DNA from: an uncultured Gammaproteobacteria bacterium
GTDB lineage: Bacteria > Pseudomonadota > Gammaproteobacteria > Pseudomonadales > Pseudohongiellaceae
Direction of reading: 5' to 3'
NCBI GenBank assembly: GCA_913060495.1
Contig: CAJXRP010000001.1
Coordinates: 62,001-126,000, forward strand
Length of the DNA: 64,000 nt
Shown: piece after piece, positions 6,552-6,789 of the stretch
Layout of the letters: each line of letters starts with the position of its first letter
How positions within the stretch are numbered: the stretch's first letter is position 1
The notes under the pieces: generated by a model
Told to the model about the DNA's origin: nothing
Database searches by the model: none
The model's input: the letters and a program-made list of their open reading frames with translations, nothing else
Position numbers and translations under genes: made by a program

Positions 6552-6628
6552 GCCCCGGTGGCACAGCTGGATAGCGCGGCCCCCTCCTAAGGGGCAGGTC
6601 ACAGGTTCGACTCCTGTCCGGGGCACCA
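6552..6628 (+). tRNA. tRNA-Arg (anticodon CCT), CCA encoded
   Basis: GCCCCGG...CCGGGGC acceptor stem, anticodon stem GCCCC-CTCCTAA-GGGGC, T-arm CAGGTTCGACTCCTG, 3' ACCA. Confidence 0.95.
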
Positions 6629-6635
6629 TAAACAA

Positions 6636-6657
6636 ACCCGCTCGCGCGGGTTTTTTT
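6636..6657 (+). terminator. Intrinsic terminator of tRNA-Arg
   Basis: CCCGC-tcgc-GCGGG stem followed by T7. Confidence 0.75.
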
Positions 6658-6661
6658 ATGA

Positions 6662-6789
6662 TGCCCCGGACAGGAGATGACAGGTTCTCGTTCGCAAGCC
6701 GCGCAGCGGCGCAGACAGCCGAAGGCTGCCCCGAAGGGGAGAGTAATTTGGCTAAGCCAAATTAGGAATCACTCCTGTCCGGGGCACCA
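6662..6789. repeat. Multi-hairpin element bounded by inverted and direct copies of the tRNA-Arg 3' end
   Basis: TGCCCCGGACAGGAG (6662-6676) is the exact reverse complement of CTCCTGTCCGGGGCA (6772-6786); ACTCCTGTCCGGGGCACCA (6771-6789) is a 19-nt exact direct repeat of the tRNA 3' end (6610-6628). Interior hairpins: GCCGC-gca-GCGGC, CAGCC-gaa-GGCTG, CCCC-gaa-GGGG, AATTTGGC-taa-GCCAAATT. Confidence 0.85.

Follow-up and report, generated by a model that had tools for sequence, protein, structure and literature searches.

Within a 64,000-nt stretch of DNA from an uncultured gammaproteobacterium of the family Pseudohongiellaceae (the window), a compact, hairpin-rich block follows a tRNA-Arg(CCT) gene and is bounded by an inverted and a direct copy of the tRNA 3′ end. 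What is this element, and how did it come to carry its neighbor's end twice? In E. coli K-12, the repeats called TLRs, first seen in 1978 and present as 22 copies at ten loci, carry an 18–19-bp copy of the 3′ end of the linked gene and have no known function; one of them is part of the rrnB T1-T2 terminator that many plasmids carry, and PMC8144298 treats the origin and role of TLRs as open. The window copy is probably a divergent new representative of this known class. Our preferred reading, to which we assign a probability of about 0.6, is that the window element is a TLR whose core sits at G57/A58 (a slash marks a junction) of a partial tRNA copy, and that such cores are non-autonomous mobile units resembling REP or MITE elements. 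An initial annotation of the locus overlooked both the class, to which E. coli rtT belongs, and the position of the core inside a T-loop.

The locus behind tRNA-Arg(CCT)

The window element lies 62 nt downstream of tRNA-Arg(CCT) on the same strand. The following features were assigned, where R1 and R2 are the repeat models described below.

6552–6628, plus strand: intact tRNA-Arg(CCT), detected by ARAGORN
6610–6628, plus strand: tRNA positions 58–76, the original of the 19-nt tail, read from the sequence
6634–6657, plus strand: intrinsic terminator, the center of a palindrome with tRNA-tail arms; fold of 6610–6680, −54.2 kcal/mol, z −12
6662–6676, minus strand: inverted copy of the tRNA tail, TGCCCCGGACAGGAG on the plus strand; 15-nt exact match, 18/18 nt in the orthologous copy L242
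6681–6694, plus strand: degenerate direct copy of the T-stem 5′ strand and T-loop start, CAGGTTCTCGTTCG, by comparison with CAGGTTCG of the tRNA
6695–6770, plus strand: core unit with four hairpins, CAAG...GAATC; R1 100.1 bits, R2 87.3 bits
6698–6710, plus strand: hairpin H1, GCCGC-gca-GCGGC (fold; covariation)
6716–6728, plus strand: hairpin H2, CAGCC-gaa-GGCTG (fold; covariation)
6729–6739, plus strand: hairpin H3, CCCC-gaa-GGGG (fold)
6744–6764, plus strand: hairpin H4, TAATTTGGC-taa-GCCAAATTA (fold; covariation)
6771–6789, plus strand: exact direct copy, ACTCCTGTCCGGGGCACCA, of tRNA positions 58–76 including CCA; 19/19 identity with 6610–6628

The initial annotation had described the inverted tRNA 3′ end, the 19-nt direct copy including CCA, the four hairpins with 3-nt loops and the pairing of the element's ends as a 15-bp perfect stem in the window copy. 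These observations are correct to the base, and the pattern far exceeds chance expectation. The folding that it had proposed as a check, as RNA and as single-stranded DNA, gave structures far stabler than shuffled sequences; RNA folding of 6660–6789 yielded −67.7 kcal/mol compared to −43.0 kcal/mol for the shuffles (z = −6.4), and ssDNA folding of the same segment gave z = −7.5.

Positions 6610–6676 constitute one large palindrome centered on the tRNA terminator, of which the inverted copy is the right arm. The inverted tail in the window has two mutually exclusive partners, namely the upstream tRNA tail across the terminator and the downstream tail around the core. The terminator separating the tRNA from the element is strong, and the promoter scan showed no match within the window element. 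Because that scan was empty inside the element, any RNA of the window element would most likely come from read-through. In such transcripts, we would guess that the downstream tail holds the inverted tail off the real tRNA. Tentatively, read-through past the terminator might allow the closing stem to form a CCA-ended minihelix of the acceptor/T-arm kind, which tRNA-processing enzymes could excise by analogy with the TLR RNAs that are cut out in E. coli.

Pfam names five neighbors of the window copy, consisting of an SSF symporter, a GNAT acetyltransferase, PPK2, a weakly matched regulator and a weakly matched glyoxalase. The earlier statement that no integrase or transposase is nearby holds for these five, and three further neighboring ORFs match no family. 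Nothing resembling an integron, with attC sites in a cassette array and an IntI integrase, adjoins the window copy.

Copies of the core and their probable insertion sites

Judged by its nearest database relatives, the host belongs with marine gammaproteobacteria of the OM182/Pseudohongiella type. A DNA search of its whole genome revealed further copies, mostly adjoining broken tRNA copies, with one pair beside a 5S gene. R1, a covariance model built from nine copies, detected 19 copies in the same genome, and copies were also found in 26 of 58 relatives (about half of the genus genomes sampled), with a maximum of 28 per genome. Of the 281 gammaproteobacterial genomes sampled, 44 contained copies (E ≤ 1e-4). 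R2, a core-only model without tRNA bases, was built from genus copies only, because the class-wide MAFFT alignment misaligned H4; when 370 class genomes were searched, it gave 28 loci outside the window's own genome. There was no gene-carrying autonomous relative among the model matches, the longer of which extended to only 133–149 nt, and neither a transposase nor an integrase could be tied to the core.

The linkage to tRNA genes was also analyzed. A same-strand intact tRNA was found within 600 nt in 79 of 137 R1 matches, and only 2 of the 137 had a tRNA on the opposite strand alone. The tRNA was upstream of the element in 62 of the 79, with its end mostly 60–75 nt before the model match. The linked tRNAs were chiefly Ser and Arg, but Pro, Lys, His, Cys, Phe and Gln were also observed. 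Similarly, 14 of the 28 R2 loci had a same-strand tRNA and none had an opposite-strand tRNA only; 80 control loci, chosen to surround a metabolic gene, were devoid of tRNAs. In 17 of the 79 linked copies, the tail agreed with its own tRNA to at least 90%, versus 1.2% for other tRNAs, and many genus copies retain just the T-stem portion of the tail. As the initial annotation had anticipated, copies thus lie 3′ of many tRNAs and many of them match their own tRNA; what the searches found was neither a single-copy sequence nor a known IS/REP family unrelated to tRNA ends.

Other tRNA regions held arrangements of their own. At L069 (G025:C1:3752500-3756200), an intact tRNA-Ser is preceded by a tandem array of four 217-bp units, each a tRNA-Ser(GCT) body that carries the core in its T-loop. 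At L261 (G012:C2, about 670200-671040), the 3′ half of tRNA-Arg(CCT) recurs in tandem with a repeat length of 149 bp; its five partial copies lack the hairpin core. In the tRNA-Ser regions L109, L116 and L118, sub-threshold matches to Rfam sX4 (RF02223) span the tRNA-Ser gene plus the spacer, so the sX4 sRNA family may overlap tRNA-Ser together with its linked repeat.

The flanks of the tRNA-linked copies read TTCG/AAAG...GAATC/AATC, and the conserved core unit, AAAG...GAATC, consists of the four hairpins in about 76 bp. The direct tail begins at tRNA position 58, and the core therefore sits at G57/A58 of the T-loop in a partial tRNA copy. Since position 58 to the CCA end at position 76 comprises 19 nt, the 18–19-bp hallmark of E. 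coli TLRs would be explained, as an arithmetic consequence, as the part of the tRNA that lies 3′ of the insertion point. We know of no earlier statement of the hallmark as positions 58–76, on a basis to which Rudd 1999 and a 1991 paper do not belong.

Sites of the G/A type were also observed outside T-loops, namely in the variable arm of a tRNA-Ser (GGGG/AAAC; L012) and in the 5S copy of E. coli rrnB (GAGTAGG/ACAAAT...CCATA/AACTGCC versus GAGTAGGG/AACTGCC). In genome G021, the core is found at TGCG/AC within an unrelated repeat, GAGATTCTGCG/ACT...CGCAGAATGAC. This 38-bp repeat (GAGATTCTGCGACT...CGCAGAATGAC) is exemplified by L306:3984-4021 and L306:5044-5157. By exact pattern, it had 122 empty copies, compared to 0 in the reversed control, and about 20 further copies contained a TLR-like core. 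The dispersed G021 copies could be a single insertion amplified along with its host repeat; no replication-strand bias was seen among them (10 of 18 along the positive skew).

Units adjoin without a spacer at GA(A or G)TC/AAAG or similar junctions. At L243, which has the same tRNA-Arg(CCT) gene as the window, two consecutive units are 73% alike, and neighbors in the abutting units of five further loci are 63–78% alike; such unlikeness between neighboring units is as expected from repeated independent insertion. Neighbors at L090 (87% alike) and in the L073 arrays (87–100% alike) are nearer to tandem duplication, and some stacked arrays, with units 96–100% alike, are simple tandem duplications. 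In L073 (G013:C6:2700-16500), a 78-bp variant unit is arrayed head to tail, in up to five or more copies that are 96–100% alike, and no tRNA is nearby.

The tRNA-Arg(CCT) locus itself has the element in L244, L242 (genome G338) and L243 (genome G351), and there is none directly behind the tRNA in the other relatives examined, a comparison that the initial annotation had proposed. L251 showed a weaker match at another place in this locus, not directly behind the tRNA. Among the tRNA-linked copies, no closely related genome pair differing by one clean insertion was found.

From the comparison of these copies, we infer that the core is mobile. The comparison shows a core unit at G57/A58, in the T-loop of a further, incomplete copy of the neighboring tRNA; the 19-nt tail (positions 58–76) is the 3′ remainder of that copy, and 5′ of the core an inverted tail completes the palindrome around the terminator. 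Under the preferred reading, cores would enter G/A sites, probably in the form of a folded strand, without target duplication and with a preference for T-loops (TTCG/AATC), and the GAATC end would re-create the target site for the next unit. The discrete, stackable units agree with the earlier proposal of a small non-autonomous REP/MITE-like element; the accompanying idea that it regenerates tRNA 3′ ends was not supported. The wider generalization that TLR cores are, class-wide, mobile non-autonomous units inserting, probably as a folded strand, at G57/A58 and other G/A sites, with the hallmark being the tRNA tail, is more tentative, and we place it a little short of even odds.

Alternatively, a tyrosine integrase acting at the tRNA might have left an attL/attR scar or mini-island, in which a short satellite lies between the 19-nt repeats and tandem copies are accretions. 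Such an origin would suit the start of the direct repeat in the T-loop, where integrases commonly act, as well as a spacing that permits tandem arrays of 170–217 bp. However, the same hairpin core is found at unrelated tRNAs, at 5S and in a non-tRNA repeat, yet the tail matches the local gene, and no integrase gene adjoins the window copy. We consider this origin highly unlikely.

Hairpin folding and the inverted tail

In an alignment fitted to the model, and hence biased toward it, double changes were observed in 21 of 24 pairs (349 cells versus 80 in shuffles); a nine-copy alignment built without the model agrees. The covariation vanished when the pairing partners were slid. Paired cells comprised 2597 Watson-Crick pairs, 58 G-T pairs and 113 other mismatches, including 18 A-C. 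The number of G-T relative to A-C therefore points to selection on single-strand folding of the element, as RNA or as ssDNA, between which the pair counts do not separate. An argument for DNA, not RNA, from the rarity of G-U was considered and set aside as not decisive, since G-T was still above A-C. The H1 loops were mostly GNA or GNNA and closed by C-G. In the GNNA loops, the third position was a pyrimidine in about 21 versus a purine in 13, an excess that would suit the known, highly stable loops of DNA more than the GNRA loops of RNA. H1 and H4 loops of AGGA, TGGA or GGGA, which resemble CsrA sites, were observed in L119, L123, L125, L132, L135 and the G021 copies, and are absent from the window copy.

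These features bear on the alternative that the element is a selected, structured TLR RNA derived from read-through and processing, whose hairpins are kept for protein binding (an Hfq/CsrA-like sponge) and which, with no mobility, spread by duplication with tRNA or rRNA. Strong hairpin covariation, the G-T excess indicating that single-strand folding matters, and the AGGA/TGGA loops of several class-level cores all favor it; furthermore, the rRNA-linked E. coli TLRs rrA, rrB and rrF are transcribed, processed and bind both Hfq and CsrA (PMC8144298). Against it, GGA loops are missing from the window copy, and the 19 TLRs in E. coli tRNA operons were judged unlikely CsrA binders (PMC8144298). 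Moreover, G021 and G013 contain core units at a distance from all tRNA and rRNA genes, and the same core with differing tRNA flanks requires a core that moves by itself. We regard an immobile RNA as unlikely, although it retains some weight.

The spacer between tRNA and core was analyzed for the inverted tail. Runs of at least 7 bases of the inverted own-tRNA tail were observed in 20 of 41 copies versus a null of 10.6% from other tRNAs, and direct tail copies in the same 41 spacers showed no comparable excess over the null. By local alignment, the own tRNA was preferred over 95% of others in 15 of the 41, where 2 were expected. The inverted tail is a perfect 18 nt in L242, 22 nt with 3 mismatches in E. 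coli tyrT and 14 nt with 2 mismatches in argV, and the entire T-arm is inverted in some class copies (L113, L131). What the family shares, E. coli included, is thus the tail of the intact tRNA in inverted form. A perfect 15-bp closing stem was rejected as a family rule; at least 7 contiguous complementary bases between the flanks were found in 6 of 42 linked copies versus 6 of 180 in the null.

Template switching during replication or repair at the terminator hairpin might have made both tails, with the core as a by-product spread by gene conversion between tRNA loci. That the terminator and tRNA tails form one long palindrome, with the perfect inverted tail of L242, and that the inverted tail is specific to the own tRNA would be accounted for. 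The conserved core at the same T-loop position class-wide and the stacking of unlike units would be left unexplained, and we consider this origin highly unlikely as well.

Comparison with TLRs and other known repeats

The literature on rtT and T-loop repeats offered little besides PMC8144298, PMC2965389 and PMC4986893. In Actinobacillus, relatives of RtT are reported close to tRNAs (PMC4986893); a connection between rtT-like sequences and BIMEs has also been drawn (PMC2965389), and a claim made for the tyrT rtT RNA was withdrawn (PMC8144298). Copies throughout the class with a defined insertion point, discrete ends, empty sites and stacking make the nature of TLRs testable, and their comparison may explain what this class is. 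If cores do jump into T-loops, a so far unknown enzyme would recognize folded strands and tRNA genes.

REP/BIME elements, which are mobilized by RAYT/Y1 proteins, are likewise short, palindromic, dispersed and non-autonomous, but the ends of the window family are AAAG and GAATC and its target is a T-loop. RAYT/Y1 was rejected as the mobilizing enzyme, since the Y1 loci bear another repeat. In the genus, GGGGTCAGAGTA is the repeat that flanks Y1/RAYT genes, and no convincing R1 match was found at 18 Y1 loci (genus plus one relative). In L221–L229, several RAYT-like Y1 transposase genes lie between inverted repeats, GGGGTCAGAGTAAATATCCAGTAG or close variants.

Among Rfam families, AaHKsRNA22 (RF02902; Aggregatibacter sRNA 22) gave full-model matches of 26–33 bits to paralogues in the window's own genome and to class copies, below its gathering score of 39.8. 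RtT RNA (RF00391; E. coli rttR) has the same order of parts as the window element, with an inverted tail, GGTTCGA, hairpins, GAGTAATCC and a tRNA tail with CCA, but it left the window copy unmatched up to E = 1, and the gathering threshold of 45 bits was not reached there. The RtT model did find some class loci detected with R1, at 45.4, 44 and 42.1 bits, and these matches to loci found with a window-derived model tie the window family to RtT.

As for TLRs, the E. coli tyrT (rtT/RttR), argVYZQ and rrnB T1-T2 spacer loci, when read, showed their parts in the same order as the window element, and R1 and R2 matched the tyrT, arg and rrnB copies weakly (6–15 bits). The window copy lies directly downstream of a tRNA gene and has full 19/19 end identity, both of them traits that define TLRs. 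Shared by the two are a same-strand position directly downstream of a tRNA or 5S gene, the exact 18–19-nt end copy, hairpins H2–H3 with TGAG or CGAG and GAGT or GAAT ahead of AATCC, and an inverted tail upstream. The window family differs in its four well-separated hairpins, its long A+T-rich H4, its head-to-tail stacking and its spread through relatives in a marine genus, where some copies are far from tRNAs.
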